This document shows, piece by piece, positions 10,054 through 58,836 of a DNA stretch of 64,000 nt (its first letter is position 1; every line of letters begins with the position of its first letter). Source of the DNA: a virus; IMG/VR virus record IMGVR_UViG_3300024239_000011, positions 144,303 to 208,302 of that record; one strand, given 5' to 3'. The position numbers were made by a program, and so were the translations under genes. A model generated the notes under the pieces. It was not told where the DNA came from. It searched no databases and was given only the letters and a program-made list of their open reading frames with translations.

Positions 10054-10254
10054 CGCCAGACCGACTCATAGGCACATTACGCATACCGCTCGTTTTGCCG
10101 GGTGGGGAAGGTACTTGCGATGTGGCTGTATTCCTAGGGTGAGAGCAAGCGTCTGACTAAGGGTAGTTCGGGAAGCGATTCAGTAATGGTCAATTGCCGC
10201 CACGTCGTCCCTAATTTGGGTTATCATTACCCGTAAATTACCCATCTTGCTCAT

Positions 10255-10282
10255 GAAACCCCCGGCAATTGCCGGGGGTTTC
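10255..10282. terminator. terminator-like hairpin
   Basis: GAAACCCCCGGCAATTGCCGGGGGTTTC is close to a perfect palindrome with short A- and T-tracts. It separates the 9748 gene from the permuted tRNA-like gene. The 200 bases before it (10054-10254) hold no convincing gene. Confidence 0.7.
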
Positions 10283-10289
10283 ATTTGTA

Positions 10290-10432
10290 TTGACCAGTTA
10301 AGGTGCCGTGATTTGCGTTTTCACGCCTGATCCAATTCAGGTGGCTTTACCATTCGCCCACTTCCCGGTAAATGGTCGGGAAGGGAGGATTCGAACCTCC
10401 AATTTGCTGTAATCACAACGAGTTCTGGTCAA
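10290..10432 (-). ncRNA. circularly permuted tRNA-like gene, copy 1
   Basis: Read on the minus strand, the tRNA 3' half comes first: T-arm GGAGG-TTCGAAT-CCTCC, acceptor 3' strand CTTCCCG and ACCA. After only five bases (TTTAC) the 5' half follows: acceptor 5' strand CGGGAAG, D-arm with GGTAAA, and a CCTGA/TCAGG anticodon arm with a 6-base loop ATTGGA. The ends pair with each other: TTGACCAG with CTGGTCAA, and GTTGTGATT with AATCACGGC (with G-U pairs). A GCGT-GAAA-ACGC hairpin lies after the anticodon arm. So the break is in the variable region and the acceptor end is closed. C1-G72 and A73 look proline-like. See copy 2 at 17947 for covariation. Confidence 0.75.
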
Positions 10433-10475
10433 TTCTGATAGATGACATTTATCATTTCGTATGGTACAATGCGTC

Positions 10476-10958
10476 ATGCTTGTTACGATCTTCGCGGACG
10501 CATCTTTCTGTCCGAAAACTTTCGCTGCTGGTTGGGCAGCCTGGATAAAATCCGAACGCGGCACTTATCGGGGTGATGGCGCGATGAAAACCATTGTCCC
10601 GGACAACAACCTTGCTGAACTGTATGCCGTGATTAATGCAATCAAGCTGGCATTCGTTTCGGAAGTGGCAGTAGCCGGGGATACGCTGTTGGTGGAAGCA
10701 GATAATCATCGTGCCTTGGCGATCCTAGCAAACCGAGGAAAGAACCTCACTATCCTCGAAAAGAAAGCCGCTACACTACTCAACGGATTGCGCTCAACGT
10801 ATGACTTCACCATCAAACCTAGACACGTAAAGGCGCACTGCGGGACTGCGGTACCGCGCACGTGGGTCCATGATGATTGTGACAAACGCGCTAAGGCACG
10901 AATGCAAGAAGCGCGTGAGAAATTGGTGCCCCCGACCGGATTCGAACCGGTACCTTGA
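10476..10958 (+). CDS. ribonuclease H-type protein
   Basis: 160 residues from the ATG at 10476 (an ATG five codons earlier is possible; neither has a good ribosome binding site, but TGACAT and TACAAT with a 16-bp gap lie just upstream). The RNase H acidic set is visible: FADAS (Asp 7), NNLAELYAV (Glu), VEADN (Asp) and HDDCDKRAK near the end. In T4 an RNase H removes primers; this one is the RNase HI fold type rather than the T4 FEN-type enzyme. Its last codons run into the tRNA-Leu on the other strand (10924). Confidence 0.8.
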   Translation: MLVTIFADASFCPKTFAAGWAAWIKSERGTYRGDGAMKTIVPDNNLAELYAVINAIKLAFVSEVAVAGDTLLVEADNHRALAILANRGKNLTILEKKAATLLNGLRSTYDFTIKPRHVKAHCGTAVPRTWVHDDCDKRAKARMQEAREKLVPPTGFEPVP

Positions 10959-11001
10959 CGGGATTTAAAGCCGTTGCCACTGCCAATTGCGCTACGGGGG
11001 C
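10924..11001 (-). tRNA. tRNA-Leu(TAA), short variable loop
   Basis: Acceptor GCCCCCG/CGGGGGC, D-loop AATTGGCAG (Leu-like), anticodon loop TTTAAAT (TAA) on stem ACGGC/CCCGT with a C-C mismatch at its top, variable region of 7 bases instead of a long arm, T-stem ACCGG/CCGGT, A73, CCA encoded. Confidence 0.8.
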
Positions 11002-11006
11002 GAAAA

Positions 11007-11014
11007 ACTAAATA
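11007..11014 (+). promoter_or_regulatory. T4-type late promoter box
   Basis: ACTAAATA, 5 bp before the ATG at 11020. Confidence 0.4.
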
Positions 11015-11019
11015 GAGTC

Positions 11020-11217
11020 ATGAACTACGACATCAACTCCGGTATTGGTAATTGGATGAAGAAGCGCGAGACGCACCTTCACAATCACTTTGGCGATCAA
11101 TGGCGCAATACCCTTTGTCGCCGGGTCCACCAGAGCTTGAAGCAAGGCATCCGGACAAGAAACGCATTTCGGCAGCGTGTTCTTAAGGCGCTTTTGCAGC
11201 ACCTTAAAGGAAGATGA
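11020..11217 (+). CDS. small basic protein (65 aa)
   Basis: Starts at the ATG at 11020, directly after an ACTAAATA box. Very basic (Arg, Lys, His), helical, with NHFGDQWRNTLCRRVHQSLKQ in the middle; nucleic-acid binding is possible. No family recognised. Confidence 0.6.
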   Translation: MNYDINSGIGNWMKKRETHLHNHFGDQWRNTLCRRVHQSLKQGIRTRNAFRQRVLKALLQHLKGR

Positions 11218-11263
11218 CAACAAGCATCCCATCCGCTATATTGGATGGATTGGAGTTTGTGTC

Positions 11264-11467
11264 ATGCTTAAGAAACATCGCGAATACCTGAAGATTGCAG
11301 AACCGATACTCAAGGAAGCGCACATTCCAGTGATAACCTGTAATGGAGGTCGTCACGTTGCGCTGATGATAAATGGGCATCGGGTTCCCATGTCCGGGTC
11401 ATCCCCGGATAAATTCGCCGCTGATCTTCGTAGGATCATCCAACGCGGCAGGAATGAGGGGAAGTAG
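11264..11467 (+). CDS. HicA-like small protein
   Basis: 67 residues from the ATG at 11264. The pattern GGRHVALMINGHRVPMSGSSPDKFAADLRRII matches the small dsRBD-like fold of HicA and related phage proteins (basic strand pair followed by SPsD and an Arg-rich helix). HicA toxins cleave mRNA and use a His in this region (GRH here). No HicB-like antitoxin is adjacent, so a toxin role is not supported by context. Confidence 0.55.
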   Translation: MLKKHREYLKIAEPILKEAHIPVITCNGGRHVALMINGHRVPMSGSSPDKFAADLRRIIQRGRNEGK

Positions 11468-11528
11468 AGGCATCGAACCTCGCACCTTGCGGTGCCCCTG
11501 TGCCGCTCACCAATACGGTAGCCCTTCC
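11460..11528 (-). pseudogene. tRNA-Ser remnant without anticodon arm
   Basis: Acceptor GGAAGGG, D-arm (CTACCG...CGG), a variable-arm hairpin GGCACC-GCAA-GGTGC and T-loop TTCGATG resemble the tRNA-Ser(GGA) at 13527, but the whole anticodon arm is missing and CCA is not encoded. It overlaps the 3' end of the HicA-like gene. Confidence 0.55.
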
Positions 11529-11534
11529 ATGAAA

Positions 11535-11611
11535 TGGTTCCGGGGAGAGGATTCGAACCTCAAACTTTCCTGATTCAAAGTCAGGCGGCCAGACCAACCA
11601 GCTACCCCGGA
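11535..11611 (-). tRNA. tRNA-Gln(TTG)
   Basis: Acceptor TCCGGGG/CCCCGGA, anticodon stem CCTGA/TCAGG with loop CTTTGAA (TTG), short variable loop, T-loop TTCGAAT, CCA encoded. U1-A72 fits Gln; discriminator is A rather than the usual G73. Confidence 0.9.
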
Positions 11612-11617
11612 TTAAAA

Positions 11618-11692
11618 TGGTCGGAGTGACAGGATTTGAACCTGCGACCTCATGCGCCCCATGCATGCGCGCTTCCACTGCGCTACACCCCG
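11618..11692 (-). tRNA. tRNA-Pro(GGG), second copy
   Basis: Acceptor CGGGGTG/CACTCCG, anticodon loop ATGGGGC (GGG), T-loop TTCAAAT, A73, CCA encoded. Starts 4 bp after the stop codon of the PD-(D/E)XK endonuclease gene. Confidence 0.9.
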
Positions 11693-11696
11693 TTAA

Positions 11697-12353
11697 TCAC
11701 CAAATCAAATCCTCGACAAAATTCATACCGGATTTCAACCCATTCTTTGGTGGATTGTATCTAACCGTGAATGTGGTTTTTCCCAGGCAACTATCTGGAA
11801 GTCTTATTACTTTGTCTATTAACGGCAAATACACCAAAATAAGATCAATTTCTGCCGCAGAATACGTCAAAACTTTTCCATTTCCATGATCAGACACAAG
11901 GTTGATTACTATACTTCCCTGTGCTTTATCAGATTTTCCGTTTGCGTATTTTACCTGAACTCGCTTTAGTTTCTCGCCATCGTCAAGCACAAAATCATAA
12001 CGAACATCGGTAGTTGGCTTACTCAATACATACCCAAGTTCAGCAGCACGTATTTGGATTTTCAACGCCGCAATTTCACCACGCAAATTAGTGGTAAGGT
12101 TTTCATGCAACGCCTTATGCTCGATCAAACCATATTGTTCGCATCGACGCTGAAAATCATCTGCATTTTTCTTATTCACCGCACGAGCATTTTCTTGCAA
12201 ACGAGATTTTAGAATTTCAGCCTGCAATGGATAATCGCGAAGCCAATAACTTGCTGTGCTTTTCGACACATTCAGTTCGGCGGATATTTCTGCCAGTGAT
12301 TTATTCTGTTTACGTAATTCTATTGCTTTTTCTCGTTCCGTTATTTTTGTCAT
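11697..12353 (-). CDS. HTH plus PD-(D/E)XK homing-type endonuclease
   Basis: 218 residues. Residues about 1-40 form a helix-turn-helix (KSLAEISAELNVSKSTASYWLRDYP) like the one in the LAGLIDADG protein at 3035. The C-terminal half has E near 107, DVRYDFVLDDGEKLKRVQVKYA (about 117-138), i.e. the Glu, Asp and Gln-x-Lys of a PD-(D/E)XK nuclease core. The gene is free-standing and, like 3035, ends directly before a tRNA-Pro. Inference: a homing endonuclease that uses the tRNA-Pro region as its insertion niche. Confidence 0.75.
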   Translation of the reverse strand: MTKITEREKAIELRKQNKSLAEISAELNVSKSTASYWLRDYPLQAEILKSRLQENARAVNKKNADDFQRRCEQYGLIEHKALHENLTTNLRGEIAALKIQIRAAELGYVLSKPTTDVRYDFVLDDGEKLKRVQVKYANGKSDKAQGSIVINLVSDHGNGKVLTYSAAEIDLILVYLPLIDKVIRLPDSCLGKTTFTVRYNPPKNGLKSGMNFVEDLIW

Positions 12354-12421
12354 TTTCGAACCCTTGACCTATTACTGGTTATATTTAGGTCAAGGGTTCG
12401 AAAATTATATCGGATGTTATT

Positions 12422-12515
12422 TGGCGGAAGACGGAGGTCTTGATCCCCAACCGCAGGGTCACTGCGATCACACTCCTTAGCAGGGAGGTCTAGGCACTCG
12501 CCTAGTTCATCTTCC
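12422..12515 (-). tRNA. tRNA-Ser(GCT), 8+4 allo-tRNA-like fold
   Basis: Acceptor is 8 bp (GGAAGATG/CGTCTTCC), T-stem 4 bp (GGGG/CCTC), G73 and CCA encoded. The D-arm is a 6-bp stem with a 4-base loop (CTAGGC-GAGT-GCCTAG), as in tRNA-Sec. Anticodon loop CTGCTAA gives GCT. Long variable arm present. T-loop ATCAAGA lacks T54. This matches the described 8/4 allo-tRNA class. Confidence 0.75.
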
Positions 12516-12520
12516 AAAAA

Positions 12521-12606
12521 TGGTTCCGGGAGTAGGAGTCGAACCTACACAGGGCGTTCGCCCCCGCATTCAAAGTGCGGTGTCCTACCAATTAGACGAT
12601 CCCGGA
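12521..12606 (-). tRNA. tRNA-Gln(TTG) with long variable arm
   Basis: Acceptor TCCGGGA/TCCCGGA, Gln/Glu-type D-arm (TCGTCTAATTGGTAGGAC), anticodon stem CCGCA/TGCGG with loop CTTTGAA (TTG), then a variable region of about 15 bases that can form GGGCG-AAC-GCCC, T-loop TTCGACT, A73, CCA encoded. A long variable arm is unusual for Gln. Confidence 0.85.
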
Positions 12607-12611
12607 TCAAT

Positions 12612-12698
12612 TGGCGGAAAGCGGGGTACTCGAAACCCAGACCACGAGGGTCCACATCGCTTAGCAGGCGAGTCCGTGCCCTGCACGGTTCACTTTCC
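12612..12698 (-). tRNA. tRNA-Ser(GCT), 8+4 allo-tRNA-like fold, second copy
   Basis: Acceptor 8 bp (GGAAAGTG/CGCTTTCC), T-stem 4 bp (GGGT/ACCC) with normal loop TTCGAGT, D-arm CCGTGC-AGG-GCACGG (6 bp, minimal loop), anticodon loop CTGCTAA (GCT), long variable arm, G73, CCA encoded. Confidence 0.78.
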
Positions 12699-12710
12699 AT
12701 GTGAATTGAG

Positions 12711-12774
12711 TGGTCTGCTGCGCACCGTTCTTCTGTTCGGCGTCTTTGCACATGGGCGCGACCCATGACAGCAG
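12711..12774 (-). ncRNA. tRNA-like RNA without anticodon arm
   Basis: On the minus strand CTGCTG pairs with CAGCAG and is followed by A and CCA. Inside are two hairpins, ATGGG-TCGCG-CCCAT and CGCCG/CGGTG with a 10-base loop, but no anticodon arm. It lies between a tRNA-Ser and the end of the HisRS-like gene. It may be a remnant or a small tRNA mimic. Confidence 0.4.
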
Positions 12775-12783
12775 AAATTGTGG

Positions 12784-13408
12784 CTATTTCAGCGCCAATC
12801 GCAGCCGATCAACACCGATAGCCCAACCAATACCTTCAGCGTAGCGTCCGCCACCAGCAACCTGTTTCTGGGCACCAAGCGAGGAAACCTCCACCTCGAA
12901 CCCATCTTCGACGTAGTACGTCAGCCCACGTTTCACCGATTCCACGAAGGTGTATTCGACCGGCAACGCATCGAGGCATCGCCGCAACAACTCCGTGACT
13001 TCTTCCGTGTCCGCTGGACCAGACCCGCCGAGCAGTTCGACCCCAAACTGAGTGAACTCGCGGTACCTTCCCGCTTGGGGGCGCTCGTAGCGATAGCACC
13101 GGTTACAATAGAACAGGCGCATCGGCTTTTTAGGCTTGATCTTGCTCCATTGGTCCCGATATAGCTCCTGAACCAAGCCAGTCACTTCCGGGATCAAACA
13201 GACTGGGCGATTGCCCTTATCGTTGAAAGCCCACATCTGGTTTACGATCTCGGGACCAGCCTTATCGATGAAGGTTTGCTGTTCCCAGATTTCCGGAAGA
13301 ATTACTTCCTCGAAACCAGCTTCAGTGAACTACCCTCCGAACAGTATCGATGATCATGCGGTATTGACGAGCGTCATCGCCCATCAGGACTTGTGTGCCT
13401 CGCAACAT
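12784..13408 (-). CDS. compact HisRS-like catalytic core, interrupted by a +1 frame break
   Basis: Two frames join to one class II synthetase core of about 207 residues. The first frame begins MLRGTQVLMGDDARQYR (ATG 13408, AAAGG upstream) and stops at TGA (13322-13324) after ..RRVVH. The +1 frame continues EAGFEEVILPEIWEQ, then motif 2 region CYRYERPQAGRYREFTQFGVE, the HisA block KRGLTYYV, and AGGGRYAEGIGWAIGVDRLRLAL (HisA2 and motif 3). The insertion domain and the C-terminal anticodon-binding domain of normal HisRS (about 420 residues) are absent. The tRNA-His at 13434 lies 26 bp upstream in the same direction. The break has a GGAGGG element before CAC-TGA. It could be programmed frameshifting, a mutation, or a sequencing error. 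Confidence 0.75.
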
Positions 13409-13433
13409 TGTCTTGCCTTTCGTTTGCGTAGTT

Positions 13434-13510
13434 TGGGGTGGCTGACGGGGTACGATCCCGCAACCTTCGCAGTCACAGTGCGACGCTCTACCAATTGAGC
13501 TACAGCCACC
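13434..13510 (-). tRNA. tRNA-His(GTG)
   Basis: Extra G(-1) opposite C73, acceptor GTGGCTG/CAGCCAC, anticodon stem TCGCA/TGCGA with loop CTGTGAC (GTG), CCA encoded: canonical His identity. T-loop is ATCGTAC, so T54 and A58 are swapped to A54 and T58. Directly upstream of the HisRS-like gene. Confidence 0.9.
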
Positions 13511-13526
13511 ACAGAAATTAAAGAAT

Positions 13527-13619
13527 TGGCGGAAGGGAAGGGACTCGAACCCCCAAACCCCCTTGCGGAGATCAAACACCTTTCCAAGGTGCGCTGTTCG
13601 CCAGTACAGTAGCCCTTCC
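13527..13619 (-). tRNA. tRNA-Ser(GGA)
   Basis: Conventional type II serine tRNA: acceptor GGAAGGG/CCCTTCC, anticodon stem GCACC/GGTGT with loop TTGGAAA (GGA), long variable arm, T-loop TTCGAGT, G73, CCA encoded. Confidence 0.9.
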
Positions 13620-13644
13620 ATGGTAACTATTGTTACCATTTAAT

Positions 13645-13721
13645 TGGTCGGTGTGGAGGGACTTGAACCCCCATGATAACCTGTCCCCGAGACAGGTGGC
13701 TTACCATTGGCCCACACACCG
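13645..13721 (-). tRNA. tRNA-Pro(CGG)
   Basis: Acceptor CGGTGTG/CACACCG, anticodon stem CCTGT/ACAGG with loop CTCGGGG (CGG), T-loop TTCAAGT, A73, CCA encoded. Confidence 0.92.
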
Positions 13722-13723
13722 GT

Positions 13724-13814
13724 TGGCGGAAATTGATGGCATCGAACCATTGACCCTACTTAGGTGTCACCATCGTTTTCAAGACGATTTAGGGAGCCAA
13801 CCCTGGCAATTTCC
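13724..13814 (-). tRNA. tRNA-Ser(TGA), 8+4 fold
   Basis: Acceptor 8 bp (GGAAATTG/CAATTTCC), T-stem 4 bp (ATGG/CCAT), D-arm AGGG-TTGGCT-CCCT with a short loop, anticodon stem ATCGT/ACGAT with loop CTTGAAA (TGA), variable region of about 20 bases, G73, CCA encoded. Sister of 17439 and 17544. Confidence 0.85.
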
Positions 13815-13822
13815 ATTGAAGT

Positions 13823-13870
13823 TGGTGCGGCGGACAGAGATCGACCCTGCACTACCAAATTCCAACAGTA
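13823..13870 (-). pseudogene. tRNA 3'-half fragment
   Basis: Ends GTCCGCCGCACCA with a weak T-arm (CAGGG, TCGATC) but no matching 5' acceptor strand before the neighbouring tRNA-Pro. Best read as a remnant. Confidence 0.35.
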
Positions 13871-13949
13871 TGGTCGGCGCGGCGAGATTCGAACTCGCGA
13901 TCTCGTGTTCCCGAAACACGCGGGGACGACCAGACTCCCCTACGCACCG
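13871..13949 (-). tRNA. tRNA-Pro(CGG), second copy
   Basis: Acceptor CGGTGCG/CGCGCCG (one G-U), D-arm GGGGAGTCTGGTCGTCCCC, anticodon stem CGTGT/ACACG with loop TTCGGGA (CGG), T-loop TTCGAAT, A73, CCA encoded. Sequence differs from the copy at 13645. Confidence 0.9.
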
Positions 13950-14042
13950 TTACCTGTTGACAAGGCACCACGAGGTGCCTACACGTTGAAAATCTCGGCA
14001 CCAGGGCTTCGGCGCCCTTATTTGGTGGGAAGTCCCATGAAA

Positions 14043-14109
14043 TGGTGCGGTCGAGGGGACTTGCCATGCGTGTCTGAGACGCACCTGTATACCATTCCAG
14101 CACGACCGC
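14043..14109 (-). pseudogene. degenerate tRNA-Leu(CAG)
   Basis: Acceptor GCGGTCG/CGACCGC, Leu-type D-arm and anticodon stem TGCGT/ACGCA with loop CTCAGAC (CAG) are intact, A73 and CCA are encoded. The long variable arm and the 5' strand of the T-stem are missing (only TGGCAAGT remains before CCCCT), giving 67 bases. Compare the intact tRNA-Leu(GAG) at 14539. Confidence 0.65.
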
Positions 14110-14111
14110 GA

Positions 14112-14140
14112 TTGACTTAATGAATTACTTGGTGTATAGT
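14112..14140 (+). promoter_or_regulatory. sigma70-type promoter
   Basis: TTGACT, 17 bp, TATAGT; 25 bp before the ATG at 14165. Confidence 0.75.
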
Positions 14141-14164
14141 ATTGGTTCAACGGGAGAGCAGCCC

Positions 14165-14527
14165 ATGAACCCGAAAGAACGCGAACAAGCATTGTGCGCT
14201 TTGTACAGCAAGTACAAGGACGAACCGCTGAAGGCGCTCGAAGAGTTCTTCGAAATCAGTTCGCACGATTGGCTGCTCAACTATCGCCACGAAGGCGAAT
14301 GTCTCGATCCCCACATTTACACGTGGGTCGAATTCGAAGCGTTGAACGACCCCCGCATCTATGGCAGCTTCAAGGTGATTTCTAAATCGTCCCTGGTGGG
14401 AAGAAAGTTCGAAATCCGTTGGCATTGGGACGGCGGTCTTCCGAACATGTTGTTGCCCGTGATCCGCTTCACCGATGTCTGGTTCCTGCCACGAGAAATG
14501 AAGTACGTGCAGCGAGAGGCAGCATAG
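14165..14527 (+). CDS. hypothetical protein (120 aa)
   Basis: Starts at the ATG at 14165 behind GGGAG and a strong promoter; the frame open from 14120 has no such support. Acidic N-terminal helix (EREQALCALYSKYKDEPLKALEEFF), then an aromatic-rich domain with several Trp. No family recognised. It is one of few plus-strand genes inside the minus-strand tRNA array and has its own promoter. Confidence 0.8.
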   Translation: MNPKEREQALCALYSKYKDEPLKALEEFFEISSHDWLLNYRHEGECLDPHIYTWVEFEALNDPRIYGSFKVISKSSLVGRKFEIRWHWDGGLPNMLLPVIRFTDVWFLPREMKYVQREAA

Positions 14528-14538
14528 TTTATAGATGG

Positions 14539-14625
14539 TGGTGCGGCTGACTGGACTCGAACCAGCACGGGAAATTCTTCCCCAGGCTTCTCAGACCTGT
14601 GTGTATACCATTCCACCACAGCCGC
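14539..14625 (-). tRNA. tRNA-Leu(GAG)
   Basis: Acceptor GCGGCTG/CAGCCGC, anticodon stem CAGGT/GCCTG with loop CTGAGAA (GAG), proper long variable arm GGGAA-GAAT-TTCCC, T-loop TTCGAGT, A73, CCA encoded. The only conventional type II leucine tRNA here. Confidence 0.93.
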
Positions 14626-14631
14626 ATTGTT

Positions 14632-14787
14632 CTATTCGCGTTCGTCGCGGTAATTCCGATACGCCGCGAAGATGGTGTCCTCACCAAGGTCAGTGATTTC
14701 CGGTGAAACCTTCTCGACATCAAGTGAAGCGACCACGATCACTACCTTCCCTTCCGGGGTAAGGTACGCTTTGTCTTGAACCAACAT
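14632..14787 (-). CDS. small protein (51 aa)
   Basis: Starts MLVQDKAYLTPEGKVVIVVASLD at 14787; beta-rich first half and acidic helical tail (YRNYRDERE). Weak GGAT-type ribosome binding site. Lies between tRNA-Leu and the tmRNA-like gene. No family recognised. Confidence 0.5.
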   Translation of the reverse strand: MLVQDKAYLTPEGKVVIVVASLDVEKVSPEITDLGEDTIFAAYRNYRDERE

Positions 14788-14802
14788 GTTGAAATCCAAA
14801 AA

Positions 14803-15021
14803 TGGTGGAGGCGAGGGGATTCGAACCCCCGTAGACCGCATAGACCCAAGCATTACCAAGGGCTGGACTTAGGTTTAGAACTTTGGGTGCCCGCTGACAG
14901 CTTTCGGAAGCCAGAAGGTCGGTCCAAACGAACCCCAAATCCACTTGCGCATGCGTCCCGGTTTTACCCGAGCCGTTGTTCTGTTCCACGGTGCCTATGC
15001 CGAACTCAGGCGGACGCCCCC
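14803..15021 (-). ncRNA. ssrA: tmRNA-like RNA (one-piece), tag not resolved
   Basis: 219 bases. The ends form an alanine-tRNA-like acceptor GGGGGCG/CGCCTCC with A73 and encoded CCA and a T-arm GGGGG-TTCGAAT-CCCCT. The 3' end (GCCTCCACCA) is the classic tmRNA end. No anticodon arm; instead GCATAG near the 5' end pairs with CTATGC before the T-arm, as helix P2 of tmRNA, and a TGAGTTCGGC segment stands where the reduced D-loop lies. About 145 bases of structured insert follow. I could not fix the tag frame; one frame runs ATG CGC AAG to a TAA. It is shorter than usual (about 350), so pseudoknots may be missing. Confidence 0.6.
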
Positions 15022-15075
15022 AAATGTTTGACCCATACAAGGATCAGGCAGTTTTGACCCTTGTGGGTCAAAAAT

Positions 15076-15160
15076 TGGTTCCGGGTGATGGACTCGAACC
15101 ACCACAAGGTTTTCACCCACGCATTCAGAGTGCGTTGACCTACCATTAGTCGAACCCGGA
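15076..15160 (-). tRNA. tRNA-Gln(CTG) with long variable arm
   Basis: Acceptor TCCGGGT/ACCCGGA, D-arm CGACTAATGGTAGGTCA, anticodon stem ACGCA/TGCGT with loop CTCTGAA (CTG), variable region of about 15 bases with GGGT-GAAA-ACCT, T-loop TTCGAGT, A73, CCA encoded. Confidence 0.87.
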
Positions 15161-15167
15161 TCAAAGC

Positions 15168-15199
15168 AAAAGGGCGTGGACCTTATGATCCACGCCCTC
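15168..15199 (-). terminator. intrinsic terminator
   Basis: AGGGCGTGGA/TCCACGCCCT stem followed on the minus strand by TTTGCTTTG, downstream of the lipoprotein gene. Confidence 0.8.
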
Positions 15200-15224
15200 T
15201 GCCAAGGGAAACCTGTGTTGTTGA

Positions 15225-15638
15225 TTACCGGCGCCGAGCGCCATACGACCGATGCGGCACCATGTCGTGCTGGTCATAATAATTATTGGGGTTATCGTAA
15301 AACTCATCGCGCTGGGCGCCGTTATCTTGCTGTTGATAGGCGCGAACCCCGTACTCACGCTGCTGTTGCTGCTGCATATACATACAGTCCGCCCGATCCA
15401 GCGACGAACCGACTTCGTTACCGGCGGCGGCACCCAGCAGAGTACCGATGGCAGTCATCGCCAGATTACCGTTGCCCTTACCGAACTGAGCGCCAGCGAC
15501 AGCACCACCAACACCACCCAGAACGGCACCACCGGTCTGCTTGTTAAAACCGAAACCACCGCCGCACGAATTGGCGGGCGATTGAGCGCAGGCGCTCAGA
15601 GCGATGGTGGCGGCGATGGCAAGAAGAATGCGGCGCAT
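15225..15638 (-). CDS. glycine-zipper lipoprotein
   Basis: 137 residues from the ATG at 15638, with a perfect GGAGGT site. Residues 1-17 are a lipoprotein signal ending in the lipobox LSAC (Cys 17). A glycine-zipper segment follows (GGAVLGGVGGAVAGAQFGKG ... GTLLGAAAGNEVG, about 35-78), as in 17-kDa surface antigen and SlyB-type outer-membrane lipoproteins, then a Gln/Tyr-rich tail. Likely exported to the outer membrane of the host; possible roles are superinfection exclusion or envelope stress. It has its own promoter at 15666-15694. Confidence 0.85.
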   Translation of the reverse strand: MRRILLAIAATIALSACAQSPANSCGGGFGFNKQTGGAVLGGVGGAVAGAQFGKGNGNLAMTAIGTLLGAAAGNEVGSSLDRADCMYMQQQQQREYGVRAYQQQDNGAQRDEFYDNPNNYYDQHDMVPHRSYGARRR

Positions 15639-15665
15639 GGTGACCTCCCTCAAAATCATGAATAC

Positions 15666-15694
15666 AGTATATCTACTGCAATCCAAGATGTCAA
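15666..15694 (-). promoter_or_regulatory. sigma70-type promoter
   Basis: On the minus strand TTGACA, 17 bp, TATACT; about 28 bp before the lipoprotein ATG. Confidence 0.8.
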
Positions 15695-15721
15695 GGGAGG
15701 GCCAAGAAGTTTTTCTTGCTA

Positions 15722-16264
15722 CTACTTCACGCCGCACCAGTCGAGCCAGAAATCACCGATGAAATTGCGTTCACCGGGCTGCGTCGAAGGAATATCCACT
15801 TCGATCCGCTGCCGACAGGACAGTACCTTGCCGGTATTAGGATGGTCGTCGCATCTCCCATACACCTTTGTGATGTAGGCGACCCGACCATCCTTCAGCG
15901 CAAACGCTTCACCAACCTTTGGATTGGCGCCGGGGGCGTCGAAGAGGATCATCGTGGCATCGTCGCTAATACACGCAAGATAAATCGTGCGCGAACGAAA
16001 AACCGCTTCCGAATTCTTGCCTTGCGGTACGAACACCATGTCCTTGCGATCATCGGCGCGATCCATCCCAGTGACGAACCCAGTCACCGTTTTTCCCTTC
16101 ACTGAAACCCGTCCGGGATGGGTGAAGAATGTGTCCGGTTCACGAGTAACCCGTACCGTGCGACGAACCCCATCGGGGCAAAGTACATTGGAATACTTGG
16201 TGGTAATGTAGAAGTGACCAACGGTTACGGCTTCCGCTACCACATCATAAGCATTGGGGCGCAT
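15722..16264 (-). CDS. hypothetical protein (180 aa)
   Basis: Good site (GGAGG, seven bases before the ATG). Beta-rich with repeated strand-turn units (VTVGHFYITTKYSNVLCPDGVRR, VSVKGKTVTGFVTGMDR, GEAFALKDGRVAYITKVYGRC) that suggest small barrels. Four Cys residues. No family recognised. Confidence 0.75.
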   Translation of the reverse strand: MRPNAYDVVAEAVTVGHFYITTKYSNVLCPDGVRRTVRVTREPDTFFTHPGRVSVKGKTVTGFVTGMDRADDRKDMVFVPQGKNSEAVFRSRTIYLACISDDATMILFDAPGANPKVGEAFALKDGRVAYITKVYGRCDDHPNTGKVLSCRQRIEVDIPSTQPGERNFIGDFWLDWCGVK

Positions 16265-16322
16265 GAACAGCCTCCGAGCTAGAGAGAAACACCACCCTAG
16301 CGAGTTATCTGCGCCTCGTCAA

Positions 16323-16399
16323 TGGTGGGAACGGTCGGACTCGAACCGACAGCATCTTTCTTTTTGAGAGAAAGTGGTCTACCAATTGCCTACGTTCCC
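16323..16399 (-). tRNA. tRNA-Leu(CAA), short variable loop
   Basis: Acceptor GGGAACG/CGTTCCC, D-loop AATTGGTAGA (Leu type), 6-bp anticodon stem CTTTCT/AGAAAG with loop CTCAAAA (CAA), 5-base variable loop, T-loop TTCGAGT, A73, CCA encoded. Confidence 0.85.
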
Positions 16400-16543
16400 A
16401 TAATTCCGAGCCAATGATCACGGCGGCGGCTCATCTTCCACCAGTTCACGCCTTTCCAGAGTCACCCACACCATTGAACAACTGCCTAGGATAGTTGAAC
16501 ATTGGCTTAATGGCAGATTGGAGTTTGCTGAACGATCTCACCT

Positions 16544-16620
16544 TGGTCGGGGATGTGAGAATCGAACTCACTTGATATCCTGCTCCCAAAGCAGGCGGCT
16601 CGCCTTTAGCCCAATCCCCG
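16544..16620 (-). tRNA. tRNA-Pro(TGG)
   Basis: Acceptor CGGGGAT/ATCCCCG, anticodon stem CCTGC/GCAGG with loop TTTGGGA (TGG), T-loop TTCGATT, A73, CCA encoded. Confidence 0.92.
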
Positions 16621-16624
16621 TTGA

Positions 16625-16873
16625 TTAAAGAATTCTGAGATCACTTGACGGATATTCATGAGGGTCTTGTGCGATCCCAATAATGGATTCCGAGCGAACA
16701 GTGATCGTTTCTGGGTAGACATTGCAATCAAGCTCTACGTCAAACACAGGGTCACGATCTTTGAACAGACCGAAGAACCGGGTCACCACGACGGAACGGA
16801 TACCGACGACCTTGCCGATCCTTCCGCCGTTAAGTTCAACCATAGTTCCGATGCTGATATTTTCTTGCTTCAT
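16625..16873 (-). CDS. small beta-barrel-like protein (82 aa)
   Basis: Starts at the ATG at 16873 just after a CGTAAATA box. Sequence IGTMVELNGGRIGKVVGIRSVVVTRFFG resembles a KOW or SH3-like barrel start (G-x-V turn). No certain family. Confidence 0.65.
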   Translation of the reverse strand: MKQENISIGTMVELNGGRIGKVVGIRSVVVTRFFGLFKDRDPVFDVELDCNVYPETITVRSESIIGIAQDPHEYPSSDLRIL

Positions 16874-16878
16874 GCAAG

Positions 16879-16886
16879 TATTTACG
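16879..16886 (-). promoter_or_regulatory. T4-type late promoter box
   Basis: CGTAAATA on the minus strand, 5 bp before the ATG at 16873. Confidence 0.45.
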
Positions 16887-17016
16887 GGGGTTTCCCGAAG
16901 ATAATCAGCGGTGTTTGACGCCCCATCCATTCATTTTCACAACCAGCCCCACTCACCCGCTGTTGTGATCTTGCGGCACATTTTCGCAAATGCTCACCCC
17001 GCATCTTGCCGTATAT

Positions 17017-17093
17017 TGGTCCGGGTGGTGAGAATCGAACTCACTTGATGTCCTGTTCCCAAAACAGGCGGCTCGCCTTTAGCCCACACCCGG
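17017..17093 (-). tRNA. tRNA-Pro(TGG)
   Basis: Acceptor CCGGGTG/CACCCGG, anticodon stem CCTGT/ACAGG with loop TTTGGGA (TGG), T-loop TTCGATT, A73, CCA encoded. Near copy of 16544. Confidence 0.92.
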
Positions 17094-17120
17094 TAATACT
17101 TCGTCGCGTATCCATTGATT

Positions 17121-17203
17121 TGGTGGGCGGGTGCGGTTACGATCCACTCCCCGAAGGATAGGTTTTACAGACCTACTGCTAGAGCCACTAGCTTTACCCG
17201 CCC
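17121..17203 (-). tRNA. tRNA-Tyr(GTA)
   Basis: Acceptor GGGCGGG/CCCGCCC, anticodon stem TAGGT/ACCTA with loop CTGTAAA (GTA), long variable arm (CCTTCGGGG), A73, CCA encoded. T-loop is ATCGTAA, with A54 and T58 swapped as in tRNA-His 13434. Confidence 0.88.
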
Positions 17204-17209
17204 GGTGTC

Positions 17210-17236
17210 TTGACAAATGTCTAGTATACTAGACAT
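17210..17236. promoter_or_regulatory. 20-bp perfect palindrome with TTGACA
   Basis: ATGTCTAGTATACTAGACAT (17217-17236) is fully palindromic, and TTGACA lies at 17210-17215. It looks like an operator, or a promoter-operator, between two tRNA genes. Confidence 0.6.
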
Positions 17237-17269
17237 AAAGTCGGTTACTGTTGGCTATAACTAACATTA

Positions 17270-17346
17270 TGGTGGGAACGGCGGGAGTCGAACCCGCAGC
17301 ATCACATATGCTGAGTATGTGTGGTCTACCAGTTGCCTACGTTCCC
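17270..17346 (-). tRNA. tRNA-Leu(CAG), short variable loop
   Basis: Acceptor GGGAACG/CGTTCCC, 6-bp anticodon stem CACATA/TATGTG with loop CTCAGCA (CAG), 5-base variable loop, T-loop TTCGACT, A73, CCA encoded. Confidence 0.85.
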
Positions 17347-17353
17347 TGAAATT

Positions 17354-17437
17354 TGGTGGACAGGGAGGGAATTTGCACCCCCACAGCTTTCGCGTCGCGT
17401 TTACAGCGCGGTGAACTCACTCGTGTTCAGCCTGTCC
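17354..17437 (-). tRNA. tRNA-Tyr(GTA), atypical
   Basis: Acceptor GGACAGG/CCTGTCC, D-arm with 5-bp stem TGAAC/GTTCA and no GG, anticodon loop CTGTAAA (GTA), short V-arm, T-loop TGCAAAT (G55), A73, CCA encoded. Elbow contacts are probably altered. Confidence 0.7.
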
Positions 17438-17438
17438 A

Positions 17439-17529
17439 TGGCGGAATGTGATAGCATCGAACTATTGACCCTGCTTAGGTGTCACCACGGCTTTCGAAAC
17501 CGATTAGGGAGCCAACCCTGGCACATTCC
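17439..17529 (-). tRNA. tRNA-Ser(CGA), 8+4 fold
   Basis: Acceptor 8 bp (GGAATGTG/CACATTCC), T-stem 4 bp (ATAG/CTAT), D-arm AGGG-TTGGCT-CCCT, anticodon loop TTCGAAA (CGA) on a weak stem, G73, CCA encoded. Confidence 0.82.
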
Positions 17530-17543
17530 AAATATTTTATAAA

Positions 17544-17634
17544 TGGCGGAAAGTGATGGCATCGAACCATTGACCCTACTTAGGTGTCACCACAATTTAG
17601 CAAATTGCTTAGGGAGCCAACCCCGGCACTCTCC
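17544..17634 (-). tRNA. tRNA-Ser(GCT), 8+4 fold
   Basis: Acceptor 8 bp (GGAGAGTG/CACTTTCC, one G-U), T-stem ATGG/CCAT, D-arm GGGG-TTGGCT-CCCT, anticodon stem GCAAT/ATTGT with loop TTGCTAA (GCT), G73, CCA encoded. Confidence 0.84.
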
Positions 17635-17635
17635 A

Positions 17636-17712
17636 TGGTGGGGACAGCGGGACTCGAACCCGCAGCATCACTGGTTCTTAGCCAATGTGGTCTACCAATT
17701 GCCTATATCCCC
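17636..17712 (-). tRNA. tRNA-Leu(AAG), short variable loop
   Basis: Acceptor GGGGATA/TGTCCCC, 6-bp anticodon stem CATTGG/CCAGTG with loop CTAAGAA; 34-36 read AAG, so A34 would need editing to inosine to read CUN codons well. 5-base variable loop, T-loop TTCGAGT, A73, CCA encoded. Close relative of 9651. Confidence 0.8.
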
Positions 17713-17722
17713 GTCTTAAGTT

Positions 17723-17801
17723 TGGGGTGATGAGCCGGATTCGAACCGCGCACCTTCGCTTTCACAGAGCGATATGCAGACACCGCCACACCATCATCAC
17801 C
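17723..17801 (-). tRNA. tRNA-His(GTG), second copy
   Basis: G(-1):C73, acceptor GTGATGA/TCATCAC, anticodon stem TCGCT/AGCGA with loop CTGTGAA (GTG), T-loop TTCGAAT, CCA encoded. T-stem has two mismatches at its base and the D-arm is enlarged. Confidence 0.8.
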
Positions 17802-17859
17802 ATAAAACTTTGTTGATGCGCATTTATTCGCGCATCCTATCTAGAAAAATTTCCCCTTT

Positions 17860-17942
17860 TTCGGCACTGTACCAAGGATTCAAACCTCAGTTACCCCAAT
17901 CGCCAGGACTGGTGATGCTTCAATCTCTCTAAGATGCCAAGG
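17860..17942 (-). pseudogene. unassigned tRNA-like remnant
   Basis: Minus strand shows a T-arm-like TGAGG-TTTGAAT-CCTTG (C56 is lost) and short outer pairings (GGCA/TGCC), but no convincing acceptor stem or anticodon loop. Confidence 0.3.
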
Positions 17943-17946
17943 GGAT

Positions 17947-18085
17947 TTGACCAGTTAAGGTGTTGTGATTTGCGTTTTCACGCCTGATCCCAATTCAGGT
18001 GGCTTTACCATTCGCCCATATTCCAATGCTGGAATAGTCGGATTCGAACCGACAATTTGCTGTAATCACAACGAGTTCTGGTCAA
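17947..18085 (-). ncRNA. circularly permuted tRNA-like gene, copy 2
   Basis: Same order as 10290: 3' half first (T-arm GTCGG-TTCGAAT-CCGAC, acceptor TATTCCA, G73), then a 4-base loop GCAT, then the 5' half (acceptor TGGAATA, D-arm GGC..GGTAAA..GCC, anticodon stem CCTGA/TCAGG with 7-base loop ATTGGGA, anticodon TGG). Outer pairings TTGACCAG/CTGGTCAA and GTTGTGATT/AATCACAAC, and hairpin GCGT-GAAA-ACGC, are kept. Compared with copy 1, acceptor and T-stem sequences differ completely yet stay fully paired, which is strong evidence for selection on the fold. No CCA is encoded; U1-A72 and G73 look Gln-like while the anticodon is Pro. Confidence 0.78.
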
Positions 18086-18089
18086 AACT

Positions 18090-18180
18090 TGGTAGGCAGG
18101 GAGGGATTCGAACCCCCTTGTTTACCCTAAGGGGCTGGATTTACAGTCCAGTGCTACACCACCGTCGTAGCCGCCTGCCC
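18090..18180 (-). tRNA. tRNA-Tyr(GTA), third copy
   Basis: Acceptor GGGCAGG/CCTGCCT, anticodon stem CTGGA/TCCAG with loop CTGTAAA (GTA), long variable arm (CCCCTTAGGG), T-loop TTCGAAT, A73, CCA encoded. The most conventional of the three Tyr genes. Confidence 0.93.
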
Positions 18181-18184
18181 ATAT

Positions 18185-18361
18185 TCAGTCGTCAATGCAT
18201 GTCTGGACGATCTCCCAATCATAGGAGTTCAGGTCCGATTTTGACTGAAGTTTCTGTTTGTAGTAGGACACCATTCCGCTCGGACACCCAAGCGTCTTCA
18301 CGATGTCGTTGCTCGGCACGCCTTTCTTAATCAGGCGCACGATTTCCTCTTGAAAGGTCAT
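18185..18361 (-). CDS. small HTH protein (58 aa)
   Basis: Start at the ATG at 18361 (AAGGA upstream, CCTAAATATT box further up). GVPSNDIVKTLGCPSGMVSYYKQKL is a clear helix-turn-helix of the resolvase or sigma-4 kind. Likely a small DNA-binding regulator. Confidence 0.7.
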   Translation of the reverse strand: MTFQEEIVRLIKKGVPSNDIVKTLGCPSGMVSYYKQKLQSKSDLNSYDWEIVQTCIDD

Positions 18362-18410
18362 AACTGCATCCTTGCTGCATTGCAACAATATTTAGGATGC
18401 GAAGAAAATT

Positions 18411-18484
18411 TGGCTGGGGAAGTAGGACTCGAACCCACATGAACGCAGTCAGAGTGCGTCATCCTGCCATTAGATGATTCCCCA
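18411..18484 (-). tRNA. tRNA-Gln(CTG)
   Basis: Acceptor TGGGGAA/TTCCCCA, anticodon stem ACGCA/TGCGT with loop CTCTGAC (CTG), short variable loop, T-loop TTCGAGT, G73, CCA encoded: canonical Gln identity (U1-A72, G73). Confidence 0.93.
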
Positions 18485-49459: not shown

Positions 49460-50677
49460 ATGACCTACATCACCAGTGACGAATTCCACGCCATCATTAC
49501 CCCTGCGACGGTTCGTATCAGCAAGCTGTTTGAGCAAGCTGGGTTCGACATCCGTATCGTCGGTGGAGCCGTGCGTGATTCGCTGCTCCGAGTGATGCCA
49601 AAGGATGTGGACTTCGCGACCAACGCGACCCCCGAAGAAATGATTCGGTTGATGGTTGCCGCTGATCTGTACGTGATCGGCGTCACGGAGTCCCTGCGGC
49701 GTGGTAAGACTCTGAATGAAATCATCGCGCGTATCGATGATATTCCGGGTATCCAGCATGGCACCGTGAGTGCGGTCATCAATGGTGAAACCTTCGAAAT
49801 CACCACGCTGCGATATGACATGGAAACGACCGGTCGGCATGCTAAAGTGGCATTTCATCGGTCGTTCCCGGAAGATGCCAAGCGTCGTGATTTCCGGTTC
49901 AATGCCATGTACGCCAGCATGGACGGGGAACTGCACGACTACGTTGGCGGTAAAGACGATCTCGACCAACAAGTTGTCCGGTTCGTTGGCGCCCCATCGC
50001 AGCGCATTAGAGAAGACTACCTGCGCATCTTGCGGTACTTCCGTTTTGCGGCGCGATTGGGGTTCTCCTTCGATGACGCGGCTGACGCGGCAATCGCATA
50101 CAACGTTGCGGGTCTGACGACCATCAGCGGCGAGCGCATCTGGGCGGAAATGTCCAAACTGTTCATGTATCGTGACCCGGTGAAATACCTGTTGCACATG
50201 CATGCTCTGGGTGTAACCGAGGCAATCCAGTTGCCGGTGGATATGGATCAGGTGCGGGTGGTGTCCGAGTTCGCTACGTCGCCCGTGTCGGTACTGGCGG
50301 CATCGCTGCGTTCGGTTAGCGAGGTCGATACCCTGGCTGCCAGATGGAAGCTGAGCGGCGTTGAACGCAACTTGGCAGCATTCTTGGTGCAATATCGTGA
50401 CGACCGGGTTGGGTTGCGGACTGCCCAGGATATGGTGGTCGATGGTGCCAACCACGACTTCGTTGCTGAACTACTGCGGGTCGGTGGACGTGTTGCCGAA
50501 GCGGATACGTTGGTTGGTTGGGTAACCCCCAAGTTCCCGGTTTCCGGCGCCGATCTGATGGCTTTGGGTATGAAACAAGGCAAAGAACTGGGTGATGCCT
50601 TGAAAAGCATGAAAGAACGCTGGAAACGCAGCGACTTTCAACTGTCCAAGGACGAACTGATGGCTGGCGGGGTTTAA
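49460..50677 (+). CDS. cca: CCA-adding tRNA nucleotidyltransferase
   Basis: 405 residues. Class II head domain: FDIRIVGGAVRDSLLRVMPKDVDFATNATPEEM (about 29-61, with GGxVRD and the DxD metal pair), FEITTLRYDMETTGRHAKVAF, the RRDFRFNAM motif (about 141-149), and the neck block RIREDYLRILRYFRFAARLGF. It adds or repairs the CCA end of tRNAs. Most array tRNAs encode CCA, but the permuted tRNA-like copy 2 does not, so the enzyme may serve repair and such transcripts. Own promoter and terminator. Confidence 0.95.
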   Translation: MTYITSDEFHAIITPATVRISKLFEQAGFDIRIVGGAVRDSLLRVMPKDVDFATNATPEEMIRLMVAADLYVIGVTESLRRGKTLNEIIARIDDIPGIQHGTVSAVINGETFEITTLRYDMETTGRHAKVAFHRSFPEDAKRRDFRFNAMYASMDGELHDYVGGKDDLDQQVVRFVGAPSQRIREDYLRILRYFRFAARLGFSFDDAADAAIAYNVAGLTTISGERIWAEMSKLFMYRDPVKYLLHMHALGVTEAIQLPVDMDQVRVVSEFATSPVSVLAASLRSVSEVDTLAARWKLSGVERNLAAFLVQYRDDRVGLRTAQDMVVDGANHDFVAELLRVGGRVAEADTLVGWVTPKFPVSGADLMALGMKQGKELGDALKSMKERWKRSDFQLSKDELMAGGV

Positions 50678-52960: not shown

Positions 52961-52989
52961 CCCCGACACCATTTATATAGGGGGTGCGC

Positions 52990-53439
52990 ATGACGGAGAT
53001 TATCGATTTTGCATCTATTAAAAAGAAATCAACCATAGGTAAAGAATTTACATTTCTTGATGGTGATGCGGCAAGAACCAGGGATAGTTTTGGGTATGCC
53101 GCAATCATGAATGAGGCTCTTCATACCGTTGCACGAAAAATTATTCAAAAAGTTGCAACGGAAGGATTACCGGGCGCTCATCATCTGTATATCAGATTCG
53201 ACACAACCACCAATGGCGTGTTTCTGGATGATTATCTTCGATCCAAATATCCGGCGGAAATGGTTATTCAATTACAACATAAGTTTACCGATCTCGATGT
53301 TACCGACACCGATTTCACGGTCACCCTTCAGTTTGAAGGTACCCCTAAAAAAATTGTGATACCATTTATGTCCATAATTTCAGTGGTCGATCCATCAGTG
53401 CCATTCGGGTTTGGTATGATTGATCCATCAAATGTGTAG
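52990..53439 (+). CDS. sspB: SspB-like ClpXP adaptor (alphaproteobacterial type)
   Basis: 149 residues from the ATG at 52990 (GGGGG five bases upstream; a GTG two codons earlier is possible). The body matches alpha-type SspB: NEALHTVARKIIQKVATEGLPGAHHLYIRFDTTTNGVFLDDYLRSKYPAEMVIQLQHKFTDLDVTDTDFTVTLQFEGTPKKIVIPFMSIISVVDPSVPFGF. In Alphaproteobacteria SspB binds ssrA-tagged proteins and hands them to ClpXP. The long acidic C-terminal tail with a ClpX-binding end found in cellular SspB is absent; the protein stops at MIDPSNV. It may thus redirect or block delivery. Confidence 0.9.
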   Translation: MTEIIDFASIKKKSTIGKEFTFLDGDAARTRDSFGYAAIMNEALHTVARKIIQKVATEGLPGAHHLYIRFDTTTNGVFLDDYLRSKYPAEMVIQLQHKFTDLDVTDTDFTVTLQFEGTPKKIVIPFMSIISVVDPSVPFGFGMIDPSNV

Positions 53440-56354: not shown

Positions 56355-56957
56355 ATGGAAAACCTCATAAAACGTGCGGCAAAAATCGCAGATGTTCCGA
56401 TATCGGCAGCATTCATATACGGCAGTCGGGTATACGGTACTGCAACCTATTCATCTGACTACGATCTCGTGGTAATTTCAGATCAAGCACGGGATGGACA
56501 TGAAATTCGTAATGGTGACCTGAATATCCACCTCTACACGCCTGTGAAATTCCAAGAAAACCTTACCCTCCATAAAGTGGTTGCGGTTGAATGCTACCAC
56601 GCGCCCGACTGTTACAAATATGGAAACGTGGAGCGGTTCCGGTGGGTTGTGGACAAAGCCACCCTGCGCCGGGAATTTTCCGAGAAAGCATCGAATAGTT
56701 GGGTGAAGGGAAAGAAGAAACTTGACGTGGAAGGTGATTTTTATATTGGTCGAAAGAGCATCTTTCACTCGCTTCGTATTATCAAATTCGGTATCCAGCT
56801 TGCCATGACCGGTCGTATTACCGATTTTGGGGCAGCAAATGACCTGTACCAAGAGATTGTACAATCCCCCGAGGAAAACTGGGCTTTCTTCAAGGAAAAA
56901 TACCAGCCGCTATACAACGAATTGAGCAGTGAATTCAGACGGCTTGCACCAAAGTAG
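56355..56957 (+). CDS. MNT-type nucleotidyltransferase
   Basis: 200 residues. Polymerase-beta-like motif FIYGSRVYGTATYSSDYDLVVIS (about 20-42) with Gly-Ser and the Asp-x-Asp metal pair, typical of minimal nucleotidyltransferases, followed by a helical domain (GRKSIFHSLRIIKFGIQLAMTGRITDF). Similar proteins occur in large phages as predicted nucleotidyltransferases; the substrate (RNA, protein or small molecule) is unknown. Confidence 0.82.
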   Translation: MENLIKRAAKIADVPISAAFIYGSRVYGTATYSSDYDLVVISDQARDGHEIRNGDLNIHLYTPVKFQENLTLHKVVAVECYHAPDCYKYGNVERFRWVVDKATLRREFSEKASNSWVKGKKKLDVEGDFYIGRKSIFHSLRIIKFGIQLAMTGRITDFGAANDLYQEIVQSPEENWAFFKEKYQPLYNELSSEFRRLAPK

Positions 56958-57693: not shown

Positions 57694-58836
57694 ATGACCG
57701 ACAAAATCAGGAAGTTCATTAACGAAAATGACCCCCAGACCCCATGCGTCATCATTGACGTTGATGTGGTCCGGAGGAATTATCACAAACTCAAATACTT
57801 CCTTCCCGAAGCCGATGTCTTTTATGCGGTGAAGGCAAATCCTGGCAATCCTATTATTGAATCATTGGCAGAAATTGGGTCATCCTTTGACGTTGCCAGC
57901 ATTCAAGAGCTTGATCTAGTTCTAAGTTTCGGCGTTAAACCCGAGAAAATTTCGTTTGGTAACACGATCAAAAAAGAACGTGACATAAAGTACGCTTATG
58001 ACAAGGGCATTCGCCTGTTCGTTTGCGACGCAGAATCCGAGCTTGAGAAAATTGCCCGTGCTGCCCCTGGCGCCAAAGTGTTCTGCCGCATTCTGTGGCT
58101 TGGGGAAGGCGCAGAATGGCCGCTATCCCGCAAGTTTGGGTGTGATCCCGATATGGCAGTAGACTTGCTCATTCGTGCCAAGGAACTGGGTCTGGACCCC
58201 TATGGGGTATCCTTCCACCCAGGCTCGCAACAGAAAGACCTCAATCAGTGGGATTTGGCAATCACCAAGGTCGCAGAAATTTTCCGTCAGGTCTATCGCG
58301 AAGCCGAAATTGAACTCAAAATGATCAACATGGGTGGTGGTTTTCCAGCCCCCGGCTATCGCACCCCGGTACAGAGCCTTGAGTCCTATGCCGACATTAT
58401 TCGGGCATCCATGGAAAAGAACTTCGGTGAAGATGAGTGGCCAAGAATCATCGTGGAACCCGGTCGTTCCATGACCGGAGACGCTGGTATCGTCCGAGCA
58501 GAAATCGTCCTGATTTCGAAGAAGATCGAGTCTGAATTTGAACCGCGTTGGGTCTATCTCGACATCGGTAAATTCAGTGGGCTTGTTGAGACGTTCGAGG
58601 AAGCCATCACCTATCGGTTCAAGACCCCGCGTGATGGTGATGAAGCGGGTCCGGTAATTCTAGCAGGACCAACGTGCGACAGCCTCGACATTCTATATGA
58701 GAAAACGGAATACAATCTTCCGCTGACGTTGGAAATCGGGGATAAGGTTGAAATCTTGTCCTGTGGGGCGTATTCAACCACATACGCCTGCGTCAACTTC
58801 AATGGCTTCCCGCCGCCAAAGATATACTTCATATAA
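57694..58836 (+). CDS. ornithine/lysine decarboxylase, PLP fold III
   Basis: 380 residues. PLP lysine in ADVFYAVKANPGNP (Lys at about 49), GSSFDVASIQELDLVL, HPGSQQ (about 170), the phosphate loop INMGGGFPAPGY (about 210), EPGRSMTGDAG (about 256) and the active-site Cys in GPTCDSLDIL (about 330). This is the eukaryotic-type ornithine decarboxylase group, which in Alphaproteobacteria also decarboxylates lysine. It would make putrescine or cadaverine; with SpeD at 7000 it indicates phage-driven polyamine synthesis, useful for DNA packaging charge balance. Confidence 0.93.
   Translation: MTDKIRKFINENDPQTPCVIIDVDVVRRNYHKLKYFLPEADVFYAVKANPGNPIIESLAEIGSSFDVASIQELDLVLSFGVKPEKISFGNTIKKERDIKYAYDKGIRLFVCDAESELEKIARAAPGAKVFCRILWLGEGAEWPLSRKFGCDPDMAVDLLIRAKELGLDPYGVSFHPGSQQKDLNQWDLAITKVAEIFRQVYREAEIELKMINMGGGFPAPGYRTPVQSLESYADIIRASMEKNFGEDEWPRIIVEPGRSMTGDAGIVRAEIVLISKKIESEFEPRWVYLDIGKFSGLVETFEEAITYRFKTPRDGDEAGPVILAGPTCDSLDILYEKTEYNLPLTLEIGDKVEILSCGAYSTTYACVNFNGFPPPKIYFI

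Follow-up and report, generated by a model that had tools for sequence, protein, structure and literature searches.

An alpha-type SspB gene without a C-terminal tail

The window, i.e. the 64,000-nucleotide stretch of DNA analysed here, is part of a 543,035-base virus record (G000) of a huge phage and carries a gene for an SspB-alpha adaptor (Table 1). Since a Shine-Dalgarno-like AGGGGG precedes the ATG and overlaps the alternative GTG, we prefer the ATG as start codon, and the protein most likely comprises 149 amino acids with the N-terminus MTEIIDFASIKKK. The preliminary description had assigned the gene to alpha-type SspB, and this is borne out by the family profile as well as by the predicted fold. 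The protein matches the Pfam family SspB (PF04386; 3.2e-30, 105.7 bits with a cut-off of 27) over positions 42-143, numbered on the 151-amino acid form, and a comparison with PDB sequences retrieved the solved alpha SspBs 2nys, 2qaz and 2qas (1e-22 to 1e-23). The AlphaFold model has a mean pLDDT of 81.6, with more than 90 in the core, 51-55 over residues 1-30 and less than 50 for the last eight residues. Superposition on 2nys, 2qas and 2qaz gave rmsd values of 1.2-1.6 and TM scores of 0.80-0.86 (normalised by target), and Foldseek linked the model to the same structures with 5e-10 to 3e-9, the E. coli SspB structure being a more distant match. No PHROGs family was found for this protein. The flanking genes, one for an opposite-strand protein with weak coiled-coil-type matches only and one that is weakly ParB-like, do not hint at a function.

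Table 1. Position of the SspB gene, its parts and further genes of the phage (window numbering unless G000 is given).
Feature	Position	Strand	Remarks
SspB-alpha adaptor gene	52990..53439	+	ATG 52990 to TAG 53439, 149 aa
Alternative GTG start of SspB	52984	+	would give 151 aa
Shine-Dalgarno-like AGGGGG	52979..52984	+	5 nt before ATG 52990; identified in the nucleotide sequence
Codons 3-13, EIIDFASIKKK, proposed N-terminal ClpX-docking motif	52996..53028	+	tail-profile match
Codons 14-33, predicted disordered linker between motif and folded domain	53029..53088	+	AlphaFold pLDDT, copy alignment
Codons 34-143, SspB fold (substrate-tag-binding domain)	53089..53418	+	Pfam, model match
tmRNA candidate element, 219 nt	14803-15021	minus	alanine-type tRNA-like ends
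Dense tRNA cluster	9566-18484	minus	only Pro, Leu, Gln, His, Ser, Tyr; anticodons repeated
CCA-adding tRNA nucleotidyltransferase-like gene	49460-50677	+	many tRNAs in the same phage
Another nucleotidyltransferase gene	56355-56957	+
PLP-dependent ornithine/DAP/arginine decarboxylase-like gene	57694-58836	+	Pfam 3e-55; unusual phage cargo
Further tRNAs	G000:98-101 kb		Lys, Gly, Cys, Ile, Val, Ala, Asn, Trp, Arg
Second SspB	G000:113848-114273	minus	Pfam 1.4e-17; outside the window
ClpP gene	G000:368671-369258	minus	7e-80; GQAASMG, VMVHQPSGG and downstream Asp (expected Ser, His and Asp segments)
ClpA-like unfoldase, 760 aa	G000:432992-435274	minus	Clp_N domain, SIGFT (IGF) loop

SspB is a textbook two-part adaptor, consisting of a tag-binding domain and a ClpX-docking tail. 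To see how constant this tail is, 80 bacterial homologues were collected, of which the 78 complete ones, including the prophage-like L003, were read. Each of the 78 closes with x[VI]VxLDx[FW]RK or a similar sequence, the bacterial alpha-SspB type being EVVSLDxFRKK, and the linker between the DPSVPF motif and the tail spans 28-125 residues in 74 bacterial homologues. In a class-wide sample of 385 alphaproteobacterial genomes we found SspB in 338, in 337 of these as a single copy, and the tail was present in all readable examples fetched from this sample, once as the variant NVVTVDFGRKK. The window SspB stops 10 residues past DPSVPF, in agreement with the earlier claim that it ends soon after the folded domain. 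The same description had named a normal tail in another frame as a possible counterargument. No tail is encoded in the other frames just downstream or in the region past the stop codon, where reading on past the TAG gives FRLVRVFPFVNIFYL. Therefore, the C-terminal tail is absent from the window SspB.

The N-terminal arm and the second SspB copy

The window SspB starts with an arm of about 33 residues that is predicted to be disordered. Most bacterial SspBs have no counterpart of this arm, and their first helix follows a few residues after the start. When a position-specific profile built from the 78 bacterial tails was scanned along the window SspB, the best match in the whole protein was found within the arm, at residues 3-13 (EIIDFASIKKK, 9.0 bits). 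Within the first 30 residues this score is reached by one of the 87 ORFs of the same phage, which is SspB itself, by none of the 463 ORFs taken from alphaproteobacterial flanks and by one of 246 ORFs from other viruses, i.e. by 2 of 796 ORFs including the window SspB. Only 1% of the shuffles of the arm reach the tail-profile score (p about 0.01), and a plain alignment of the N-terminus to the alpha tail consensus yielded p = 0.0125. A looser regular expression for the motif, composed after both phage sequences were known, selects the two phage SspBs and none of the other ORFs tested. The statistics are modest and post hoc and are not proof, but they make the resemblance of the phage N-terminus to the alpha tail suggestive at the level of sequence.

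The beginnings of two proteins that are clients of the ClpX N-domain, lambda O (MTNTAKILNFGR) and UmuD (MLFIKPADLREIVTFPLF; PMC3983244), are similar to the phage N-terminus by eye only. As sequence matches, lambda O, UmuD and the E. coli XB peptide were rejected: the likeness is suggestive by eye, but neither lambda O nor XB reaches significance (p 0.5-0.7 for lambda O against the phage N-terminus). The visual similarity to a ClpX client could mean that the motif acts as a lambda O-like degron, which would turn the phage SspB into a short-lived ClpXP substrate and time its action without any tether. We consider this very unlikely, as the formal comparison with lambda O is not significant and the window copy fits the host tether better.

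Outside the window, where genes were sought by family searches and in short stretches, the phage encodes a second SspB, which is 38% identical to the first and ends six residues past DPSVPF, likewise without a C-terminal tail. It starts with MTNVIHFPGKKSQ, its N-terminal peptide is MTNVIHFPGKKS and its opening reads MTNVIHFPGKK. M1, T2, I5, F7, K12, K13 and S14 are common to both copies (shuffle p 0.017), little of the linker behind them is conserved and residues 19-33 align poorly. On its own, the second copy shows no significant similarity to the alpha tail (p 0.8), so that its support for the motif comes from its resemblance to the first copy. In the tree the two phage SspBs pair with weak support (78/88) on long branches of 2.7 and 5.6 changes per column. 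It is possible in view of this pairing that a single relocation took place before the duplication, and the N-terminus may be common to both copies through descent. The start codon of the second copy overlaps the stop codon (TGATG) of an upstream 388-amino acid gene that lacks a Pfam identification and appears nucleotidyltransferase-like by eye, and a gene for a YqiJ-like membrane protein follows.

The modest p value of about 0.01, the long branches and the absence from both copies of the Trp that host SspBs have within QHQFWDL would also fit a chance resemblance, in which case the SspB fold would be decaying or have been repurposed for a different role in peptide binding. We regard such a coincidence as highly improbable, since the ORF is intact, the core fold is kept, the motifs DPSVPF, HH..I and Q.F occur in both copies and SspB is maintained at two places in the genome.

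Viral contigs were scanned for further relatives with such an N-terminus, starting from each of the two phage SspBs, from the pair aligned with one another and from an alignment that included bacterial SspBs, but no third example was found in the viral or phage collections. The sole viral contig match, L003, clusters with the SspB of Paracoccus and ends in a normal tail. The one phage-collection match to the window protein, MT836065, is an unverified 13-kb fragment with the normal alpha tail DVVSIDAFRKK, and its SspB is probably bacterial. No such SspB was found in 50 records of viruses related by their tail sheath, many of which are short fragments.

The loss of the C-terminal tail from both copies raises the question of whether these proteins are tetherless decoys, which would bind host ssrA-type tags, fail to dock on ClpX and thereby shield tagged proteins and compete with the host SspB in a dominant-negative manner. 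Such a role would fit the good preservation of the tag-binding domain in the window copy, in which 27 of 35 near-invariant bacterial domain positions are kept (22 of 35 in the second copy). However, a pure decoy needs no such arm, whereas here the N-terminus carries a tail-like motif, the start of the arm is kept between diverged copies and other phage SspBs retain the tether, which is why we think a decoy function unlikely. The blocking role considered in the preliminary description corresponds to this decoy and presupposes a protein without tether, on which the N-terminus casts doubt. The lack of a ClpX-binding tail stated there holds for the C-terminus, but not necessarily for the docking element: with EIIDFASIKKK and the similar beginning of the second copy, to describe the window SspB as lacking a ClpX-binding element is probably incomplete, and the hook may have been moved to the other end of the phage SspBs instead of being lost.

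Clp genes, tmRNA candidate and host of the phage

Besides the two SspBs, the phage carries genes for a ClpP and a ClpA-like unfoldase, located about 64 kb apart, and both products together possibly form a phage ClpAP. ClpX with its zinc domain and ClpS were not found by family searches of G000, a record that may be incomplete. Judged by the tail sheath, Sinorhizobium phage Phosso and Agrobacterium phage Atu_ph07 come closest among the sequenced phages (46-49%), and both encode ClpX and ClpS and lack SspB; for Atu_ph07, seven Clp-like proteins have been reported (PMC6102473). This relationship lends indirect support to the alphaproteobacterial host claimed previously, which we also consider likely.

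This set of Clp genes opens the possibility that the arm engages the phage ClpA-like unfoldase instead of the host ClpX, so that SspB would act as adaptor for a phage ClpAP. It would do so in the manner of ClpS, which contacts ClpA through an extension at its N-terminus. In favour of this reading, the phage has a ClpA-like protein and ClpP but no detected ClpS or ClpX, and its nearest relatives show the reverse combination of ClpX and ClpS without SspB. On the other hand, the arm is similar to the tail by which the host SspB docks on ClpX, the genes lie at a great distance from each other, the absence of ClpX is unproven in a possibly incomplete record, and we know of no SspB-family adaptor that delivers to ClpA. 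Taken together, an adaptor for ClpAP seems quite unlikely to us.

The presence of a tmRNA-like gene in the window, which had been suggested before, is not supported by our analysis. No standard tmRNA was detected by ARAGORN or by Rfam at gathering scores. The only candidate element reached 28.4 bits in the Rfam tmRNA search in comparison to a gathering score of 47, is outscored by an ordinary tRNA-Ala of the same phage (36.4 bits) and is not called by ARAGORN, also not with the intron option. Matches at E 0.1 or less were also obtained from the control genomes of archaea, which to our knowledge do not have tmRNA. The ends of the candidate element, as seen in its sequence, are of the alanine tRNA type, with GGGGGCG paired with CGCCUCC followed by ACCA, a G3-U70 pair, a T-arm and CCA, and about 146 nt separate the possible anticodon-stem strands CCGUG and UGCGG. 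In none of its reading frames does hydrophobic-Ala-Ala precede a stop codon; the residues at this place include SSA, PKF, ASA, RLG and SPW. Based on the Rfam score, ARAGORN, the tag frame and the archaeal controls, we rejected the element as tmRNA partner of the phage SspB; possible identities are a tRNA carrying an insert and a tmRNA that has degenerated. The idea of a tmRNA is not absurd for this group of phages, because one was reported in the related Sinorhizobium phage AP-J-162 (PMC11242549).

Proposed placement of the ClpX tether and comparison with known systems

We favour the interpretation that the phage protein functions as an SspB-type adaptor and that its ClpX tether has been shifted from the C- to the N-terminus, and assign it a probability of about one half. 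The folded domain would bind a C-terminal degradation tag, either of the host ssrA type or a peptide chosen by the phage, and the flexible arm would present a short hydrophobic-basic motif (EIIDFASIKKK in the window copy, NVIHFPGKK in the paralogue). This motif could dock on the host ClpX at its N-terminal zinc-binding domain, and the cargo would then be passed to ClpXP with a ClpP provided by host or phage. The existence of two diverged copies suggests delivery of more than one class of substrates.

In E. coli, the last ten residues of SspB (XB) dock on the ClpX N-domain (PMC3983244). The XB peptide is reported to be engaged by the zinc-binding domain whatever its place in the polypeptide, and to bind with a KD of about 65 nM when fused internally (PMC12373786), which makes an N-terminal tether workable. 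Furthermore, phage SspBs generally retain the tether: the gamma-type proteins of pf16, Ea35-70, AH06 and SNUABM_54 end in LRVVK, LTVVK, LSIVK or LTIVK, and this speaks for a delivering role of SspB in phages. The position independence of XB and these tether-keeping phage SspBs are among the reasons why we prefer a relocated tether over a decoy, a ClpA adaptor, a degron or a chance resemblance. The SspB-like protein of Xanthomonas phage LucasX (L184) ends with VSSMADFRARRKPSS and not with LRVVK, and differs in this respect from the other phage SspBs.

The occurrence of SspB in phages is already known (PMC5587285, PMC10299810), but we found no precedent for an alpha-type phage SspB, for two copies per phage or for an N-terminal docking motif in the open-access literature or records. 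If true, a tether at the opposite end would give the adaptor an architecture that is new to the SspB family, and a tail that was moved with two versions being kept would indicate that the geometry of the tether is only loosely constrained. It would also represent a natural design for aiming ClpXP at chosen proteins and suggest that huge phages steer and not merely block protein degradation of the host. More tentatively, and on the doubtful side in our opinion, one may think of a degradation programme run by the phage, in which two divergent SspBs with N-terminal tethers select different tags, or different proteins of phage and host, bring them to ClpXP or to the phage ClpA-ClpP and in this way redirect host proteolysis during infection.

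In comparison with known systems, the phage belongs to the surroundings of the jumbo phages Atu_ph07 and AP-J-162 (PMC6102473, PMC11242549) and of Phosso, a group rich in Clp proteins. Phosso and Atu_ph07 combine ClpX and ClpS without SspB, whereas in the present phage two SspBs occur together with ClpP and a ClpA-like protein, and neither ClpX nor ClpS was found. The ligands of the ClpX zinc-binding domain, E. coli XB, lambda O and UmuD, are short docking peptides rich in hydrophobic residues (PMC12373786, PMC3983244); by alignment, the similarity to XB and lambda O is not significant, in contrast to that of the window copy to the alpha-SspB tail. The gamma-type phage SspBs (pf16 gp18, PMC5587285; Erwinia phage RAY gp039, PMC10299810; Ea35-70-like) are likewise SspBs on large phages, but they are members of the E. 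coli-type branch, and pf16, Ea35-70, AH06 and SNUABM_54 keep the C-terminal LRVVK-like tail. The closest system is the alphaproteobacterial SspB (Caulobacter crescentus, 2qas/2qaz; Agrobacterium AGR_C_3712, 2nys), which has the same fold (TM about 0.83, 43% identity) and belongs to the same family PF04386, with most domain positions conserved in the phage copy. In contrast to this counterpart, the phage copy lacks the C-terminal linker and the EVVSLDxFRKK tail and has an N-terminal arm of 33 residues that bears a tail-like motif, and the phage genome holds two copies, whereas almost every sampled SspB-bearing alphaproteobacterial genome (337 of 338) holds one.
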